Origin: Opitutus sp. ER46
GTDB taxonomy: Bacteria > Verrucomicrobiota > Verrucomicrobiia > Opitutales > Opitutaceae
Length of the DNA stretch: 64,000 nucleotides
Assembly: GCF_003054705.1 (NCBI RefSeq)
Contig: NZ_QAYX01000023.1
Location: 372,001-436,000, forward strand
Direction of reading: 5' to 3'
Below the pieces are notes generated by a model, which saw only the letters and a program-made list of their open reading frames with translations, was not told the DNA's origin and searched no databases. Below, piece after piece: positions 52,237-58,200 of the stretch (the first letter of the stretch is position 1; every line of letters starts with the position of its first letter). The position numbers and the translations under genes were made by a program.

Positions 52237-53514
52237 TCACCACACGCCGGCGACGGCGGTCTGGCAGTGTGGGCAACGACCTCCGACGAGGACGTTCCGG
52301 GTGACCGCGAAGCCCGTGCGCTCGATCACCGGCCGGCGGCACTGGGGGCAGAACGTGGCTTCGGCGCCCTCCAGTTCCGGCACGTTGCCGATGTAGACGT
52401 GGCGCAGGCCGGCGTCCCGGGCGATGTCGCGGGCGCGCAACAAGGTGTCCACCGGCGTGGGCGCGAGGTGCTCGAGTTTGTGCTGCGGGTGGAAACGCGA
52501 GAAGTGCAGCGGCCGGTCGGGCCCGAGTTCCGCGACAATCCAGCCGCACATCCGGCGGATGGAATCGAGGCGGTCGGTGTAGCCCGGCACGACGAGATTG
52601 ATGATCTCGAACCACACGCCGAGTTCGTGGCAGACCTTGAGCGTACGCAGGATCGGCGCGAGCCGACCGGAGTTGAGCTGGCGGTAAGTGGATTCGTCGA
52701 AACCCTTCAGATCGATGTGGGCGGCGTCGACGAAGGCGAGCAGCTCGCGCAGCGGGCGCTCCTCGATCGAGCCGCAGGACACCAGGATGTTTTGGCGGCC
52801 GGCGGCGCGGACCGCCCGGCAGGAGGCCAGCGTGTACTCATAGTAGGCCGTGGGCTCGGAGTAGGTGTAGGAGACGCTGGGGCAGCGCAGGGCTTCCGCC
52901 ACGCCGGGGAGATCTTCGGGAAACAGGCTCAGCCGGCTCATCTCGTCGAGCGTGAGCGTCGCGGGGAGCGGGGCGCGCAGGCGCAGTTCGGCACCGCGGG
53001 CGTCCTTGGTGTCCTCGGGCCGGCGCTGGGAGATTTCCCAGTTCTGGCAGTTGAGGCAGCGGAAGACGCAGCCGGCGGTGGCGAGGGAGAACGTGCGCGC
53101 GCCCGGATGAAAATGGAACAGCGGCTTCTTCTCCACGGGGTCGACGTGGAAGGTGCACGGGTTGCCGTAGGCCAGGGTGTAGAGCGTGCCGTCGCGGTTC
53201 ACCTTGTTGCGACAGTGGCTGCGGTCGCCCGGCGCGAGGATGCAGTTGTTGGGGCAGACCTTGCACTGCACGTTGCGGCCGAGCTTCACGTAATGGGCGG
53301 CCTCGCGCGCCCAGCCGCGCTGTGCCCAGCGCCGCCACGTGGCCTCGCCGGGGGCATCCCCCTTGAACACCTCGGCCGGCCCGTCGCCGTCGGCACCGAG
53401 TCCGAGCAACCGCTGCAGCCACGACGCGTCGGTGGCCGCGAGGAGGGCGGTGGCGCCGCCGGCGCGGAGGGCGGTGCGGCGGGAGACGGGGGCGCTGGCG
53501 ATGGCGAAGGACAT
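52237..53514 (-). CDS. AmmeMemoRadiSam system radical SAM enzyme, Tat-like signal
   Basis: 425 aa from the ATG at 53514. The N-terminus VSRRTALRAGG followed by ATALLAATDA looks like a twin-arginine signal. A Cys cluster (Cys84, 87, 91, 101) precedes the radical SAM motif C-x3-C-x2-C (Cys149, 153, 156 in AGCVFRCLNCQNW). SYTYSEPTAYYEYTL and the DLKGFDESTYRQL segment are family markers. The C-terminus has two C-x2-C pairs (FCPQC, GRCPHC), as in a zinc ribbon. The family is defined by co-occurrence with Memo and AMMECR1, both encoded 2.5 kb upstream on the same strand. The substrate is unknown in all organisms. It begins two bases after the stop of the small membrane-protein gene, so the two are tightly coupled. 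Confidence 0.9.
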   Translation of the reverse strand: MSFAIASAPVSRRTALRAGGATALLAATDASWLQRLLGLGADGDGPAEVFKGDAPGEATWRRWAQRGWAREAAHYVKLGRNVQCKVCPNNCILAPGDRSHCRNKVNRDGTLYTLAYGNPCTFHVDPVEKKPLFHFHPGARTFSLATAGCVFRCLNCQNWEISQRRPEDTKDARGAELRLRAPLPATLTLDEMSRLSLFPEDLPGVAEALRCPSVSYTYSEPTAYYEYTLASCRAVRAAGRQNILVSCGSIEERPLRELLAFVDAAHIDLKGFDESTYRQLNSGRLAPILRTLKVCHELGVWFEIINLVVPGYTDRLDSIRRMCGWIVAELGPDRPLHFSRFHPQHKLEHLAPTPVDTLLRARDIARDAGLRHVYIGNVPELEGAEATFCPQCRRPVIERTGFAVTRNVLVGGRCPHCQTAVAGVW

Positions 53515-53516
53515 GT

Positions 53517-53774
53517 TCAGGCCCGCGGCTTGATCCATTCCCACCGCACGAAGGCGAGGTAGACGGAAGGGACGAGGTGGAACCCAACCAGTAACGCCAG
53601 TGGCAGGTGCAGCCGCCGGTGCAGCGCCAGCGCGGTGCGCTCGTCGAGCCAGACCCCGAGGCCGAAGCCGTCGCTCAGCGCGTATCCGGTGAAAAAGAAC
53701 GCGAGCACCACCGGGATCAGGAGCCAGCCGGTCCAGCGGACCAGTTTCAGGGCGAAGAACTGCAGGCGGCTCAT
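53517..53774 (-). CDS. Small two-helix membrane protein, cytochrome b-like
   Basis: 85 aa. Two hydrophobic helices: about 12-34 (LVRWTGWLLIPVVLAFFFTG) and about 53-76. His residues lie at the start and inside the second helix (LHRRLHLPLALLVGFHLVPS), spaced as in heme b-binding helices of small cytochrome b-type domains. Heme binding is inference. It lies between the spermidine-synthase-like gene and the radical SAM gene, two bases before the latter, which suggests that it serves the radical SAM protein, for instance as an electron donor or anchor. Confidence 0.75.
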   Translation of the reverse strand: MSRLQFFALKLVRWTGWLLIPVVLAFFFTGYALSDGFGLGVWLDERTALALHRRLHLPLALLVGFHLVPSVYLAFVRWEWIKPRA

Positions 53775-53824
53775 GGGCGGGAATAGGGACGATGGTGGCG
53801 GTTGGGCGGGCGGTGCGACCTCAC

Positions 53825-53872
53825 GAGAACGAGAACGAGAACGAGAACGAGAACGAGAACGAGAACGAGAAC
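53825..53872. repeat. Eight perfect GAGAAC hexamers
   Basis: Eight identical copies in tandem within the 105-bp spacer between the spermidine-synthase-like and small membrane-protein genes. On the mRNA-sense strand it is GTTCTC repeated. It is the cleanest copy of the GAGAAC family in the window. Confidence 0.95.
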
Positions 53873-53879
53873 CGGGGGG

Positions 53880-56063
53880 CTAGCGGGAGGGGCGAGCGAC
53901 GGCGGCGCAAGCGAGGTTCAGGGCGGCGGCGAAGAGGCAGACGGGGACCAGGCCCCATTCCGGGAGCATGAACGAACTCACGGTGAGCGCGCCGAGCGCG
54001 GCGCCGACGAGGTCGGCGGAGAAGATGCGCGGCGCCTGGCGCGCAGCGTTGCCCGTCGGCTGCGCCGCGGCGTACGCGAACTGCGCGCCGACCACGCCCG
54101 AGATCAGGAGGGTCAATCCGAGCAGCACGGTGTAGCCGCCGGGCGTGCCGGTCGCGGCGTCGATGGCGCCAAGCCGGGGCAGGAGCAGCGCGCAGACCAG
54201 CGCGAGCGCGCCCAGCGCGAAACCGCCGGTGCGCACCAGGCGCCGGAGGTGGCCGCTCGGGTGGCGCCGCGCGAAGGCCGCGCCGAGGGCGAGGCCGGCC
54301 ATGAACAGCGCCGTGACCAGTCCGATCTGCTGATAGAGCGAGCCGTAGCAGACCTGGAGGGTAACGAGCAGCGCCAGTTCGAGCGTGGACGCGGCATAGC
54401 CCGCGGCGAACACCAGCCGGGGAATCGCGGGCAGCCGCACGAGGGCGGTGACGAACACCAGCACGAGCGTGCCGCCAAAGGCTCCGGCGGGGAAAGAAAA
54501 CTGGCTGAGCCACTGGCGGAGGCGCAGCACGTAGAGGATCGGGCGGAAATCGGTGTTAATCGGGGCGGGGGTGAGGCTGGCGCGATCGACATCGGCGAGC
54601 CGGTCCGGCGCGAGCGTGGCCGCGAGGTAGTGGCGGTTGACGAGCCGCGGCGCGACACCCAGCTGCTCGAGCGCGGGGGCGATGTCGCGGTGCAGGGGAC
54701 CGTCGGAGCCGAGGAAGAACACGCGCGCACCCGGGAGCACGGCGACGTGGGAGAACGCGGTGGCGAGCGTGGCGCGTGCGGAGCCCAGGGTGGCGGCGAG
54801 TTCCGGGCTGATGTAGTTGACGTAGTAGCCGGTGCCGAAGGCGAACACGCCGGCGGGGTGGAGCGCGCGTTTCGCGAGTGCAAAGAACTCGGCGGTGAAC
54901 AGGCGGTTCAACTGGAGCGTGGTGGGGTCCGGCAGCGCGATGAGGATGACGTCGAAGCGCTCGGCCGTCTGCTGCAGGAAACGTCGGCCGTCGGCGGCGA
55001 CGACGCGGATGCGCGCATCGGCGAACGCGTTCGGCAGGTGCTCGCGCGCGGCCATTAGCAGGCCGGGGTCGAGCTCCACACACGTGACTTGTTGGATCGT
55101 GGGATGACGCAGCACCTCGGGCGCGGCGCCCGCGACGCCGCCGCCGACCAGCAGCACGGAGCGGGCGCCGGGACGCTGGGCGAGCGCGTAATGCACGATC
55201 TCCTCCGCCGCCGCGGCGTTGGCACTGAAGCTGACCGGCACGCCGTTTTCATACAGCGCCAGCTGGCCGGCGTCGCGGGTCACGACGACGCGCCCATACG
55301 GCGTGGTGCGGTGGTCGACCACGAGCGCGGGGTACTGCCATTGCGTTGATCGCGTCGCGAGATCGCCGAACCACGCGAGCGCGGCGAGGACCACCGCGCC
55401 GGCCGCCGCCACGAGGCGAAAGCGGTGACCCCAGGTGCGCCGGCTGATGCCGGCGGCGAAAGCGCACAGGCCGGCCGCCAGCCAGGCGAGCAGCGTCATG
55501 TGGTCGATGCCGCGTCCGAGCCAGACGGTGAACAGGACGGCGCCGAGCACGGCGCCAGCGACATCGGCGAGATACACGCGCGCAACCGGATGACCCTCGT
55601 TCTCTCGGAACAGGATTCGGCACCCAAATGTGAGGAGCATGCCGCTGCCGAGGCAGAACGGCGCGAGCACGAGGAGCGTGCCGTAGGTGGTGCCGAGGGG
55701 ATCGATGGTCTCTCCCGCGCCGAAGACACCCCCGCGCAGGCTGCGGATCGCGAGGCCCTCCGCGAGGGCCACGACGCCGAGGAGCGCGGTGCCGCCCACG
55801 AGGTGCCGCACCGGGTGCGGGATGTGCCGCACCAGCGCGCCGAGCCAGGTTCCGCCCGCGGTCAGCACCAGCCAGCAGCTCAATGTGATGCCGAAGGTCA
55901 GCTCGTTTGCCGAAAACACCGCGAGCAGTTCGCGCATGAGCGCGAGCTGGATGATGACCGCGCCGGCGCCCAGCACGCCGACCGTGACGATCACGTACGG
56001 GCGACGCGAATACGCGCCCTGCAGGGGCTGGTCGGTGGGCGCGGCCTTGGCGGCGTGAAACAT
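53880..56063 (-). CDS. Membrane-integrated spermidine-synthase-like protein
   Basis: 727 aa from the ATG at 56063. About eight membrane helices, then a Rossmann SAM-type domain resembling spermidine synthase (SVLLVGGGVAGAAPEVLRHP, CVELDPGLLMAA, VVAADGRRFLQQ, FDVILIALPDPTTLQLN), then about six further helices. The usual G-G-G-D-G reads GGGVAG, and the usual DSTDP acidic motif reads ALPDP, so classical aminopropyl transfer is doubtful. Such fusions are widespread and uncharacterised. It starts 17 bp after the Memo-AMMECR1 stop on the same strand and so belongs to that transcript. The catalytic domain most likely faces the cytoplasm, but topology was not computed. Confidence 0.85.
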   Translation of the reverse strand: MFHAAKAAPTDQPLQGAYSRRPYVIVTVGVLGAGAVIIQLALMRELLAVFSANELTFGITLSCWLVLTAGGTWLGALVRHIPHPVRHLVGGTALLGVVALAEGLAIRSLRGGVFGAGETIDPLGTTYGTLLVLAPFCLGSGMLLTFGCRILFRENEGHPVARVYLADVAGAVLGAVLFTVWLGRGIDHMTLLAWLAAGLCAFAAGISRRTWGHRFRLVAAAGAVVLAALAWFGDLATRSTQWQYPALVVDHRTTPYGRVVVTRDAGQLALYENGVPVSFSANAAAAEEIVHYALAQRPGARSVLLVGGGVAGAAPEVLRHPTIQQVTCVELDPGLLMAAREHLPNAFADARIRVVAADGRRFLQQTAERFDVILIALPDPTTLQLNRLFTAEFFALAKRALHPAGVFAFGTGYYVNYISPELAATLGSARATLATAFSHVAVLPGARVFFLGSDGPLHRDIAPALEQLGVAPRLVNRHYLAATLAPDRLADVDRASLTPAPINTDFRPILYVLRLRQWLSQFSFPAGAFGGTLVLVFVTALVRLPAIPRLVFAAGYAASTLELALLVTLQVCYGSLYQQIGLVTALFMAGLALGAAFARRHPSGHLRRLVRTGGFALGALALVCALLLPRLGAIDAATGTPGGYTVLLGLTLLISGVVGAQFAYAAAQPTGNAARQAPRIFSADLVGAALGALTVSSFMLPEWGLVPVCLFAAALNLACAAVARPSR

Positions 56064-56080
56064 GGCGGACGGCGCGGGGC

Positions 56081-57586
56081 TCAGGGCTCGTGCTCCCGGA
56101 ACGACGCGACCTGGTACACGGCGACCTCGACCCCGGGCCGGCGCCAATCGCCCGCGCGCCCGCCCGCCTTCTGCGCGAGCGTGTCCAGAAACTCGGTCTT
56201 GTCCGGCAGTTGCTGCCAGACCTGGGGCAGGTAGGTGGCGGTGCCGGCGGGCACGCGCAGAATCACGCCGTCCACCCCGGGGCGCAGTTGCCGGAGCAGG
56301 TCATCGGGCGAGGTGAACGGCAGCGGGAGGGGGGCCGAGAGCACGCTGATCTCGATCTCGAGCCCGGCCACCTCCGCCGGGCGCACCGGGGAGAAGCGCG
56401 GGTCCTCGCGTGCCGCGCTGCGGGCATTGTCGATCACGGCAGCGTAGAGCGGGCCGCGGGCCAGCAGGTTGCCGATGCAGCCGCGCAACTGGCCGTGCCG
56501 CGTGAGCGTGACGAAGACCGCGCGGGAGGCGGTGAGGCTGGGCCGGTTCGCGAGCTCGCCGGGGGCGGGGAGCTCCTCGTTGCCGGCGGTCGCCACCACC
56601 GTGCGGCGCGCGAGGGCCAGGAGCAGGCTTCGTTCCTCGGCGTTGAGGGTCGCGCCGGCCGGACGCGCGTAGAACGCGACGGCGGCGTAGCCGACGACCC
56701 GGGACGAGTCGCCGGCGGTGTCGCCGCTGTTCCGGAGGTCGAGCAAGCGGGCCTCCCACCCGCGTTGGCGCGCGAGGTGGACCAGCGTCTGCACGGGCAC
56801 CAGGCCGCACGCTTCCTGCGTCGCGAGTTGGCGCAGGTCCAGCGCGAGGACGGCATCGACCCACCGCCGGTCGAGCCGGCGCGCCTGGGCGGCGGAGTGG
56901 TAGTGGCTGAGATCGGTGCTGACGACGAGGAGCGTGCGGTCATCGACGAACCGATCCAGGGCGCGCGCGGCGGCGGCCGGATCGACGCGGCCCATCACGA
57001 CCGGGAGCAACTGGAAACTTCCGAGGCTGCGCTGCAGGAAAGGAACCTCGACTTCGCCGGAGTGCTCCCAGGTATCGGCCTGGTCCTCCCCCGGGCGCGG
57101 CAGCGGGCGTGACGCTTGGTCGGCCCACGGCGGCCGCTGGACATCCAGCGGGTGATCGAGTGCAAAGGGCGCGTGCCGGGCGAGTTCGCGGGCCTGCGGG
57201 GCAACCGGCACGTCGCCGAGCGGCGTGCGATAGATGTCGGCGTCCGAAACCGCGGCGAAGTCGATGGCCGCGTAGTGGGCCGGCGAGAGCAGGACGACCG
57301 TGGCGAAGGACGATCCTCGCAGGAGGGCAAAGCCGGAGGCGGCGACGGGTCCCGAATAGTCGTACCCCGCGTGCGGGCAGATTAGCGCCCTGAGCTCACC
57401 GGTCGGCGAGGTCTTGGCCGCGGCGAGGTACGCGTCGACCGTGCGGCCGAGCACGCCGGGATCCTTGGGGTAGAACAGCCCTGCCACCGCCGGCTCCCGC
57501 ACCTCAGAAGCCGATGGCGGGGTGGCGAAGACGGTGACCGCGCAGGCGAGGGCAAACGCGAGGACGGGGCACGGGGAGCGTTTCAT
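56081..57586 (-). CDS. Memo-AMMECR1 fusion protein with signal peptide
   Basis: 501 aa. A signal peptide (about 1-27, ending PPSAS) is followed by a Memo domain (about 30-310): REPAVAGLFYPKDP, CPHAGYDYSGPVAASGF, LLSPAHY, VVSTDLSHYHS and LRNSGDTAGD hold the metal-site-type His and Asp residues. Then comes an AMMECR1 domain (about 315-495) with the invariant LRGCIGNL, VIDNARSAAREDPRF and a C-terminal VAVYQVASF. In the AmmeMemoRadiSam system these are components B and A, often separate and cytoplasmic; here they are one exported chain. It is the first gene of the four-gene unit ending with the radical SAM gene. Reaction unknown. Confidence 0.9.
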   Translation of the reverse strand: MKRSPCPVLAFALACAVTVFATPPSASEVREPAVAGLFYPKDPGVLGRTVDAYLAAAKTSPTGELRALICPHAGYDYSGPVAASGFALLRGSSFATVVLLSPAHYAAIDFAAVSDADIYRTPLGDVPVAPQARELARHAPFALDHPLDVQRPPWADQASRPLPRPGEDQADTWEHSGEVEVPFLQRSLGSFQLLPVVMGRVDPAAAARALDRFVDDRTLLVVSTDLSHYHSAAQARRLDRRWVDAVLALDLRQLATQEACGLVPVQTLVHLARQRGWEARLLDLRNSGDTAGDSSRVVGYAAVAFYARPAGATLNAEERSLLLALARRTVVATAGNEELPAPGELANRPSLTASRAVFVTLTRHGQLRGCIGNLLARGPLYAAVIDNARSAAREDPRFSPVRPAEVAGLEIEISVLSAPLPLPFTSPDDLLRQLRPGVDGVILRVPAGTATYLPQVWQQLPDKTEFLDTLAQKAGGRAGDWRRPGVEVAVYQVASFREHEP

Positions 57587-57649: not shown

Positions 57650-58012
57650 TCAATGCAGGAGGAGCAGGCTGGTCAGGAGACCGGTCCAGGCGACGAGACC
57701 GCCGCCTACGAGAAAGAAGGTGAGCCGGCGGGAGTGGGCCTTCGCGGCCTGGGACAACCGGAGCCACGAGACGTCCACCACCCAGTGAATCTGCGGCATG
57801 CCGGCCGGCAGCGGGTACCATTGGCAGCCGTCGGCAATGAATCCCTCGGCTGCGAGCTGGCGGATGAAGGCGATCTTTCTGCGTTCGGAGAAGCTGTTGC
57901 GCGTCGCGCGGACGATCACGGTCTCGGGGTCCGGGGTTTCCACCTTCAGGAGCGTGTCCACATCGGGGAAGGTGAACTCATAGCTCCGGGTCTTCAGCGC
58001 GGGCGTGTTCAT
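57650..58012 (-). CDS. Hypothetical protein with C-terminal membrane helix
   Basis: 120 aa from the ATG at 58012. The first 90 residues are soluble (YEFTFPDVDTLLKVETPDPE, NSFSERRKIAFIRQLAAEGF, WYPLPAGMPQIHWVVDVSWL) and end in one helix (FFLVGGGLVAWTGLLTSLLL), suggesting a tail anchor. I do not recognise the family. It is 63 bp upstream of the Memo-AMMECR1 gene on the same strand, so it may be part of that unit. Confidence 0.7.
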   Translation of the reverse strand: MNTPALKTRSYEFTFPDVDTLLKVETPDPETVIVRATRNSFSERRKIAFIRQLAAEGFIADGCQWYPLPAGMPQIHWVVDVSWLRLSQAAKAHSRRLTFFLVGGGLVAWTGLLTSLLLLH

Positions 58013-58160
58013 CCGCGCGATAGACCAGGGAAATGGAAAGTGGAGCGCCGTGCGCGGCGGAATTTTCGCGGCGAGAGCGTTCAAAGGCCGGATGTCAGAA
58101 GTCAGAGGTCGGATGTCAGATGTCGGAGATCAGAAGTCGAAATCCAGAGGCGGTTTGTCG

Positions 58161-58200
58161 GAGGGAGAGTAGGAGAAAGAGGAAGAGTAAGAGAAAGAGC
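58161..58200. repeat. GAGGAA-type purine repeat (element B)
   Basis: About six units of GAGRAA with one GAGTAA. Shares AAGAGGAAGAGTAAGAG with the copy at 48069-48104, 10 kb away. The preceding 80 bp (58085-58160) carry short imperfect ATGTCAGAAGTC repeats. Confidence 0.85.

Follow-up and report, generated by a model that had tools for sequence, protein, structure and literature searches.

Here, we analysed a 64,000-nt stretch of contig NZ_QAYX01000023.1 of Opitutus sp. ER46 (the window; all coordinates are window positions) that carries an AmmeMemoRadiSam unit of four genes, read from the window as frames that all lie on the minus strand between positions 52237 and 57586 (Table 1). Membership in the system follows from the NCBIfam models for proteins A and B and the radical SAM enzyme, all of which scored above cut-off: TIGR04336 (Memo) and TIGR04335 (AMMECR1) matched P0004 with 224.1 and 178.6 bits (cut-offs 26 and 99, respectively), and TIGR04337 matched P0001, the radical SAM enzyme (RS), with 317.6 bits (cut-off 220). 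P0003, the large membrane protein (SPD), passed the cut-off of the fused MFS_SpdSyn model NF037959 (49.9 versus 40 bits) and that of PF01564. Thus, as proposed in the first-pass annotation, the three hallmark components share one same-strand unit with two membrane proteins, SPD and the small P0002 (SM2). The RS frame probably starts at GTG 53544 rather than at ATG 53514, because some relatives begin with MGMDQ and the window frame reads GMDQ at this point; RS would then overlap the end of SM2. BLAST found no counterpart of the frame directly upstream on the same strand (P0005, 57650-58012) at the 80 loci of relatives, and this frame was therefore not counted in the unit; a promoter and terminator scan yielded nothing above chance. 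Flanking genes, judged by eye, differ between loci and were dropped as a pathway indicator. Among the relatives, whose rows and loci carry L-numbers (the window RS is row L196), RS has a DUF362 neighbour in L193 and in L149, and L025 and L031 have multihaem cytochromes; both observations are too rare to build on.

Table 1. Features of the AmmeMemoRadiSam unit in the window
Feature	Position	Strand	Basis
P0004, Memo-AMMECR1 fusion (AmmeMemoRadiSam B+A), 501 aa	56081..57586	minus	TIGR04336 and TIGR04335 above cut-off
P0003, SPD, MFS-fold membrane protein, 727 aa, SpeE-like domain mid-protein	53880..56063	minus	NF037959 above cut-off; AF2
SPD, possible earlier start	56147	minus	
SPD, N-terminal seven TM helices, aa 21-232	55368..56003	minus	loop charge and AF2
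SPD, SpeE-like (spermidine-synthase-fold) domain, aa 247-520, predicted extracytoplasmic; nucleoside-pocket residues E330, D358	54504..55325	minus	
SPD, C-terminal seven TM helices, aa 526-722	53898..54488	minus	loop charge and AF2
P0002, SM2, 85-aa two-helix membrane protein, half-size cytochrome b561-like	53517..53774	minus	modelled as two helices
P0001, RS, AmmeMemoRadiSam radical SAM enzyme, twin-arginine signal	52237..53544 from GTG (53514 from ATG)	minus	
RS, twin-arginine pair, R12-R13 from ATG	53476..53481	minus	
RS, radical SAM cluster motif C149-x3-C153-x2-C156	53047..53070	minus	

The RS family falls into two halves, I and II, separated by a bipartition with 0 errors (SH-aLRT 93 in a 71-row subset). 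Cysteines C149, C153 and C156, along with 41 other positions, are at least 90% conserved in both halves (rows not de-duplicated). The signals were scored separately for 94 rows of half II, including the window protein, 58 rows of half I, and 20 rows of a short, signal-less clade within half II. A strict rule, which asks for a twin-arginine motif with a mildly hydrophobic core after it, is satisfied by 87 of the 94 half-II proteins, among them the window RS, with the N-terminal stretch SRRTALRAGGATALLAATDASW, as against 0/58 in half I and a background of 32/1198 control genes; a first, loose rule matched 252 of 1274 ordinary genes and was discarded. The short clade scores 0/20 and lacks any RS signal or N-terminal extension. 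Taken by itself, the Tat signal of the window RS is marginal (12.3 bits to the Pfam model TAT_signal, PF10518, with a cut-off of 22.7; E 0.18), and the case for export is built on the conservation of the strict motif across half II as opposed to half I and control genes. An S or T stands before the basic pair in 74 of 93 rows, and the residues that follow the pair are Tat-like; L058 and L059 lack the second basic residue of the motif, and L149, L204, L205 and L207 have an N-terminal TM anchor in place of the Tat motif. Radical SAM enzymes normally reside inside cells, where SAM and reductant are available in the cytoplasm, so that an RS located outside the membrane would be unusual; nevertheless, this pattern makes such a location very probable in the lineage of the window.

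The Memo-AMMECR1 fusion begins with a plain hydrophobic Sec-type signal (about aa 1-27), and in the half-II branch generally, these proteins carry a Sec or lipoprotein signal. A hydrophobic N-terminal stretch is present in 43 of 45 closed rows of half II and in 9/9 rows of the short clade with Memo-AMMECR1 close to RS, compared to 2/23 in half I, both within longer fused frames; given that the rule is loose (383 of 1132 control genes pass; at most two TM stretches, first 50 residues), it is the contrast between the halves that lends weight to this result. The AMMECR1 residues L367, R368, G369, C370 and G372 and the Memo residues His72 and His104 are conserved in both RS halves. Memo-AMMECR1 is, by these signals, almost certainly located outside the membrane, and export of Memo/AMMECR1 and RS is supported as a property of the whole branch, that is, of this bacterium and many relatives. 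The first-pass annotation had assigned a Sec-type signal to the fusion and a Tat-like one to RS, and the sequence-rule scans recovered a signal on both soluble proteins, the one on RS by virtue of its relatives. In these scans, neither of the outcomes that the first-pass annotation had named as refuting it was observed. Its stronger claim, that every soluble part is exported, is supported for Memo-AMMECR1 and most half-II RS but does not extend to the 20 signal-less RS of the short clade.

In the AF2 model of SPD (pLDDT 91.7), 14 helices, seven on either side, flank the SpeE-like domain. The domain has the spermidine synthase fold (1uir and 3anx, Z 29.9), whereas the TM part has the MFS fold (SV2A, Z 27.6 over 349 residues; PepTSt, Z 25.4 over 363). 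The even loops contain 11.8 K+R compared to 3.3 in the short odd loops, and the SpeE domain occupies an odd loop; its flanks, with 3.46 K+R in 30 positions, do not favour an outside location. Because the loop charge bias, the helix count of the model and the MFS fold agree, the domain can be placed outside with considerable confidence. The alternative is that RS and the SpeE domain are both cytoplasmic, with the RS N-terminus serving as an uncleaved, non-exported tether, so that the system operates at the inner face of the membrane and only Memo-AMMECR1 lies outside. The weak Pfam score of the window signal, the RS clade devoid of an N-terminal extension, the positive flanks of the SpeE domain and the habitual use of cytoplasmic SAM and reductant by radical SAM enzymes all fit such an arrangement. 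We nevertheless consider it very unlikely because the residues around the basic pair are Tat-like, a hydrophobic N-terminal helix after arginines normally places the remainder of the protein outside, and three separate features put the SpeE domain there.

The nucleoside pocket of SPD is nearly invariant in the class that accompanies a Tat-type RS (E330 in 60 and D358 in 61 of 61 distinct SPDs), but E330 is found in 0/16 SPDs of the short class and is lost in 2 of the 4 SPDs of the TM-anchor class (L149 and L205), despite the anchored RS. Position 376, which we take to correspond to the catalytic base of polyamine synthases, holds Ala in the window SPD; of 81 distinct SPDs, 41 have Asp here (40 of 61 in the Tat class). 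Conceivably, SPD could be an ordinary polyamine aminopropyltransferase, its association with RS and Memo reflecting a link to the polyamine pathway, as the fold of the SpeE domain and the retention of the nucleoside-binding residues, and frequently of the base, in the Tat class would suggest. This is highly improbable, given that SPD falls short of the polyamine aminopropyltransferase equivalog cut-off (173 versus 472 bits), that the base is unconserved, that the domain is predicted to lie outside, and that SPD co-occurs genome-wide with half-II RS. The match of SPD to PRK03612 is below cut-off as well. Thus, the original label of a spermidine-synthase-like protein is apt for the SpeE fold but not for the protein as a whole, which has an MFS fold, a SpeE domain predicted outside and, in the window, no synthase base.

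Within the phylum, SPD was detected at a threshold of at least 200 bits in 30 of 194 genomes, all 30 of which encode a half-II RS, although in about ten of these SPD is on another contig than RS. At the 80 named loci, 21 fetched stretches lacked SPD; all 21 genomes were then searched elsewhere, and 19 contain an SPD of at least 200 bits (12/12 in the first set, 7/9 in the second), with a Memo match adjoining the distant SPD in 7 of the first 12. Of the other two, the genome of L073 has no SPD of at least 200 bits, and that of L028 only a contig-end fragment. No SPD reached 200 bits in seven identified half-II genomes, of which four belong to a single genus. In a second phylum, at least two RS matches were found in 44 of 49 genomes with SPD versus 8 of 69 others. 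Judged from these sequence matches, SPD is a component of the half-II branch, linked to the RS gene or not, rather than of the cytoplasmic half. The stricter notion that SPD travels only with an exported RS is ruled out by the signal-less clade, in which 16 of 20 genomes carry SPD, so that RS apparently need not be outside for the system to operate.

The other membrane partner, SM2, was recovered by BLAST at 37 and by HMM at 39 of the 80 loci; most loci whose titles are deltaproteobacterial lack it. Hence, of the two membrane neighbours whose conservation the first-pass annotation proposed to check, SPD does track half II genome-wide but SM2 is not a fixed partner. In 37 members, His52 and His66 of helix 2, which are 14 positions apart, are invariant, and both positions are His in 43/43 rows (40 distinct loci). 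PF01292 matches 15 of the 37 members (E up to 0.05, best 8.5e-6), the window SM2 not being among them; a fold search with the SM2 model returned no match under E 0.001, and the best hit of the SM2 profile against PDB sequences was an acyltransferase with E 0.061. Since SM2 has only two helices, heme binding would probably require a dimer. Other potential redox modules occur elsewhere in the branch. Among the 15 short-class SPDs scanned, 14 contain FMN_bind and 12 Fer4_5; ApbE is encoded in 14/14 genomes with an FMN_bind-SPD, yet also in 7/14 control genomes, and is therefore common. A DsbD_2 domain is fused to RS in L145 and adjacent to it in L149. These extra modules (SM2, flavin/Fe-S and DsbD-like) are likely electron donors, although a quinol-fed b-type heme is not an obvious donor to a low-potential [4Fe-4S] cluster.

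After its own family, RS scores best with glycyl-radical activases, and among PDB sequences it matches the PFL activase alone (E 0.0033). It is therefore possible that Memo is the redox enzyme outside, with RS acting as a PFL-activase-type maturase of Memo-AMMECR1 (or of SPD), before export where RS is signal-less and after export where it has a signal; the electron modules would then serve the Memo metal site, and the nucleoside pocket of SPD would be incidental. Such a division of labour would account for the export of Memo-AMMECR1 both in the clade with signal-less RS and in the rest of half II, and for the occurrence of the FMN_bind/Fer4_5 module in exactly that clade. However, RS is exported in most half-II rows, through either Tat or a TM anchor, the fusion in L145 ties an electron module to RS itself, and the activase equivalog cut-offs are far off (46 versus 250.2 bits for YjjW and 43.8 versus 231.75 for PFLA). 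On balance, we regard the maturase scenario as rather unlikely.

The reading that we prefer, on the combined sequence and model evidence, is that of an extracytoplasmic, electron-fed AmmeMemoRadiSam system, an envelope branch of the family, which we consider moderately probable as a composite. RS would be exported through Tat in the folded state, with its Fe-S clusters in place, and would act at the outer face of the inner membrane next to Memo-AMMECR1 and SPD. SM2, as a half-size b561-like cytochrome, would carry electrons through the membrane to the exported redox proteins, a role that could be played in other lineages by the flavin/Fe-S module fused to SPD or by the DsbD-like module fused or adjacent to RS. 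SPD may bind, and possibly export, a SAM-type nucleoside for RS outside, and RS, the metal-containing Memo with its dioxygenase fold, and AMMECR1 could jointly alter an envelope substrate, as in the modification of a periplasmic or lipid substrate originally envisaged. The parts of this scheme differ in strength. Whether RS performs SAM radical chemistry outside appears evenly balanced, and there is about an even chance that the substrate is a lipid or a quinone rather than a protein; that SPD supplies the nucleoside is a tentative suggestion, more doubtful than either. To our knowledge, SAM is not known in the periplasm. The scenario in full, in which a radical SAM enzyme exported via Tat works outside the cytoplasm, SPD delivers or captures SAM-type nucleosides, an interchangeable electron module replaces the cytoplasmic reductant and an envelope component is modified, falls somewhat short of an even chance.

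Conservation of Memo and AMMECR1 extends from archaea to humans, and we know of no reaction that has been assigned to the two jointly. The principal comparative study of Memo contexts is reportedly that of Burroughs et al. 2019 (J Biol Chem), where part of the context described here may already have been noted. The conservation and the unassigned reaction of MEMO1 are also mentioned in passages of PMC7694686. Our literature search did not retrieve AMMECR1 together with spermidine synthase, although an earlier description of Memo contexts is possible, nor did it retrieve any of six phrases denoting an exported, periplasmic, secreted or extracellular radical SAM enzyme. A single paper, PMC10924467, combined at least three of radical SAM, spermidine synthase, MFS and Tat signal peptide, and in a passage of this paper a radical SAM gene is named only as the neighbour of another gene. 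The exported branch narrows the search for the reaction: both its substrate and its product must be accessible on the outer side of the membrane, where a supply of electrons and of a SAM-type nucleoside would also be required. If RS indeed works outside, this would overturn the usual assumption that radical SAM chemistry takes place in the cytoplasm, and SPD could then be considered as a protein that moves or holds SAM across a bacterial membrane.

The branch and its parts can be compared with several known systems. Like the cytoplasmic AmmeMemoRadiSam system (TIGR04335/04336/04337), the half-II branch comprises the same three families, all above cut-off in the window, with the same RS cysteines, Memo histidines and AMMECR1 RGC-G residues, but it is predicted to be exported, is accompanied by SPD and by putative electron modules in the membrane, and has RS proteins that make up their own half of the tree. 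SPD shares MFS-like helices and a SpeE domain with the fused MFS/spermidine synthases of NF037959 and with membrane-bound PRK03612-type SpeE, from which it differs in its 7+7 helices, the predicted outside location of the SpeE domain, the unconserved base and the occurrence in genomes with half-II RS. The FMN_bind and Fer4_5 domains of SPD in the related clade, from genomes with ApbE, recall the NosR/NapH-like flavinylated modules (Meheust et al. 2021, PMC8238504). The main text of that study makes no mention of spermidine, radical SAM, Memo, AMMECR1 or MFS; here, by contrast, the module forms one protein with an MFS/SpeE part and occurs together with Memo and RS. SM2 resembles the prokaryotic cytochrome b561/Ni-Fe hydrogenase cytochrome b family (PF01292) in the matches of 15 of 37 members and in the two invariant His of one helix, but has only two helices and, in the window, no match to the family. 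Finally, the domain fused to RS in L145 and adjacent to it in L149 is that of the DsbD/CcdA thiol electron conduits (PF13386); what sets it apart is its fusion to a radical SAM enzyme.

The four-gene AmmeMemoRadiSam cassette described in the first-pass annotation was recovered intact, with the genes and their common strand as claimed (see table) and with the hallmark model scores of its proteins (TIGR04335, TIGR04336, TIGR04337) above the cut-offs. The host genome holds a single AMMECR1-family match and a single frame matching the radical SAM enzyme (RS), both inside the cassette, so that no cytoplasmic copy of either is seen in the assembly. A perfect hexanucleotide repeat, ACGAGA, of 8.3 copies (window 53823-53872) lies between the genes for the MFS/spermidine-synthase-like membrane protein (SPD) and the 85-aa two-helix membrane protein (SM2), outside both frames, and its copy number could vary. 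Directly upstream of Memo, on the same strand, is an orphan of 120 aa with a C-terminal hydrophobic stretch (P0005, window 57650-58012), which has no Pfam or NCBIfam match; short imperfect tandem repeats with periods of 14-21 cluster upstream of the cassette (window 58081-58199).

Genes of the AmmeMemoRadiSam cassette in the window
Gene	Position	Strand	Remark
Memo-AMMECR1	56081-57586	minus	first in gene order
SPD	53880-56063	minus	second in gene order
SM2	53517-53774	minus	third in gene order
RS	52237-53514	minus	fourth in gene order; start probably GTG at 53544

Of 461 relatives found in a single scan across 84,980 species genomes, the best 80 were used; a further search covered 194 genomes of the phylum of the window and 11 genomes behind named loci, and 100 and then 20 more stretches were fetched, representing part of the RS places over the cut-off. 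Among the matches listed, the nearest relatives of RS are Opitutia/Opitutaceae and other Verrucomicrobiota records. When the best 80 of 461 loci were searched by BLAST with the proteins of the window, SPD was found at 59, Memo-AMMECR1 at 44, SM2 at 37 (39 by HMM) and P0005 at none; these counts are lower bounds because many stretches stop at contig ends. Genes beyond the cassette edges differ among loci. To judge from the titles of the records, SM2 is characteristic of Verrucomicrobiota, is found elsewhere in Omnitrophota (L012), Thermogutta (L042), Myxococcota (L040) and proteobacterial loci (L052, L065, L073), and is missing from most deltaproteobacterial ones.

In a FastTree phylogeny of 172 RS domains (24 of 196 rows having been excluded: 17 repeat loci of re-fetched places, 5 identical sequences and 2 truncated ones), one branch with support of 93 parts 58 rows (half I) from 114 (half II), the latter comprising 94 rows with an N-terminal extension and 20 “short” rows that lack it. 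The split recurs with 0 errors and support of 90 when 10 rows, two of them repeats, are added, and in a mixture-model tree built on 71 of the rows (SH-aLRT 93), where a branch with support of only 71 has all 35 exported rows on the same side. A strict Tat rule (one of S/T/N/D/G followed by RR/RK/KR, with Tat-like residues and a 9-mer free of charges after the pair) was passed by 87 of the 94 extended half-II enzymes, as against 0/58 in half I, 0/20 short ones and 32/1198 other called genes. The seven failures are L023 (P before RR), L046, L058, L059, L145 (DsbD_2 fusion), L149 (transmembrane anchor) and L161. By a looser count, the best basic pair in 93 RS rows is RR in 68, RK in 19, KR in 4 and KK in 2, preceded by S or T in 74/93, with none in L149; in L204, L205 and L207 an N-terminal transmembrane anchor takes the place of the Tat motif. 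Memo/AMMECR1 proteins carry a hydrophobic N-terminal stretch in 43/45 closed half-II rows (3 open rows removed) and 9/9 short ones, versus 2/23 in half I, both of the latter within long fused frames; the two half-II misses are L040, with a signal-like stretch further upstream, and L050, a separate AMMECR1 piece. The export proposed in the first-pass annotation is well supported, as a branch-wide property, by these predicted signals. The RS clade without a signal is a main result counting against a simple export reading; the second main point against it is that SAM and a substrate outside the membrane, which such a reading needs, are both putative. At L212 (4775-5890), another twin-arginine radical SAM protein (PF04055, 2e-9), missed by the RS profile, adjoins SPD.

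The SPD family has 14 hydrophobic segments, with a SpeE-like domain between the 7th and 8th. Mean K+R is 2.87, 2.04, 1.88, 0.33, 3.51 and 1.16 in the even loops, 1.03, 1.51, 0.04, 0.20, 0.55 and 0 in the odd loops, the domain loop aside, and 3.46 in the 30 residues flanking the domain. On balance, the SpeE-like domain is predicted to lie outside. An AlphaFold2 model (46 rows; pLDDT 91.7, pTM 0.91) has 7 helices, the domain and 7 helices; fold matches of the domain are spermidine synthases (1uir, Z 29.9, 282 aligned), and those of the membrane part are MFS proteins (SV2A, Z 27.6, 349 aligned; PepTSt, Z 25.4, 363 aligned). In PepTSt-type MFS proteins, there are two extra central helices, the loop between which would be outside. 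E330 and D358, which, from alignment to solved synthases, we take to be SAM-pocket positions, are kept, respectively, in 60/61 and 61/61 distinct SPDs of the Tat class, 0/16 and 14/16 of the short class, and 2/4 and 4/4 of the transmembrane-anchor class, classes being assigned by locus or genome and 10 Tat-class rows coming from stretches with a borderline RS or none of their own. Because the short class is one clade, its loss of E330 counts as one event. What is presumably the catalytic-base position of the synthases is Asp in 41/81 distinct SPDs (Tat class 40/61) and Ala in the window (Ala376).

SPD at or above 200 bits occurs in 30 of the 194 phylum genomes (a partial 173-bit match in G129 being left out), and all 30 have a half-II RS. 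At least 37 half-II genomes were identified, of which seven (G192, G087, G101, G035, G050, G159, G098), four of them from one genus, have no SPD of at least 200 bits. In about 10 genomes, SPD and half-II RS are on separate contigs, some of which may reflect assembly breaks. For the 21 named loci without SPD in the fetched stretch, whole genomes were searched: SPD was present elsewhere in all of the first 12 (388-945 bits for the best piece, and in G202 split over frames), with a Memo match beside it on the same contig in 7, and in 7 of the remaining 9 (281-909 bits). The genome of L028 has only a C-terminal fragment of 71 bits close to the end of a contig, and that of L073 has no SPD of at least 200 bits (54 bits). 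A second phylum, to which G196 (a record titled Deltaproteobacteria) belongs, was searched over 118 genomes: SPD reaches 200 bits in 49, and two or more RS matches occur in 44/49 of these versus 8/69 others, in raw counts not assigned to halves, in which one gene may account for more than one match and genome size may contribute; at least 20 SPD-RS pairs within ~5 kb were seen by eye among the matches listed. In G196 itself, one SPD sits between two RS copies (L184, 6848-11436). The new point is that SPD, an MFS protein with a predicted outward SpeE domain, tracks the half-II branch even when unlinked.

Two His residues, 14 apart in the second helix, are invariant in 43/43 SM2 rows (three being repeats). 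In a Pfam scan of 37 members, cytochrome b561 (PF01292, best 8.5e-6) is matched by 15 and Sdh_cyt by 3, the window SM2 having no match there. Short-class SPDs are usually longer (868-1466 aa); of 15 scanned, 14 carry FMN_bind and 12 Fer4_5, L216 having neither. At L147, one further hydrophobic segment precedes FMN_bind, beyond the 14 family helices, so that FMN_bind would be outside, consistent with the SPD topology. ApbE was found in each of the 16 genomes checked for it, the 14 with FMN_bind among them, and in 7/14 controls; at L130 (G148:C124), its gene is ~3 kb from a short-clade RS. DsbD_2 is fused to RS at L145 (4.3e-16) and encoded next to SPD at L149. That transmembrane electron carriers of three unrelated kinds occur in a single gene neighbourhood suggests a common requirement for electrons outside, and we infer that the carriers serve RS, not Memo. 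SM2, and this too is new, is one among several interchangeable candidate electron modules. Beside or near half-II RS genes lie DUF362 proteins (L193, 5979-6851; L149, 1925-3082), of which one has 4Fe-4S motifs, and multihaem c-type cytochromes, possible alternative electron partners, lie upstream of Memo (L025, 1701-2954; L031, 1492-3270).

Conservation in both halves is 90% or higher at the radical SAM cysteines and another 41 positions of RS, at His72 and His104 of Memo, and at L367, R368, G369, C370 and G372 of AMMECR1, so that, from their residues, all three enzymes look active. Phrase searches of open-licence literature, outside which most subscription journals lie, returned no report of an exported radical SAM enzyme; the main text of PMC8238504 does not mention spermidine, radical SAM, Memo or AMMECR1, and PMC10979944 gave no match to the terms sought. 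PMC6393860, PMC7694686 and PMC10924467 were also drawn on. “Recently-described Memo-Ammecr1 systems” are named in PMC7159879, with citation of Burroughs 2019. By sequence, RS matches PFL activase alone among solved structures (E 0.0033), and Memo and AMMECR1 have their matches in human MEMO1 and archaeal AMMECR1-type structures.
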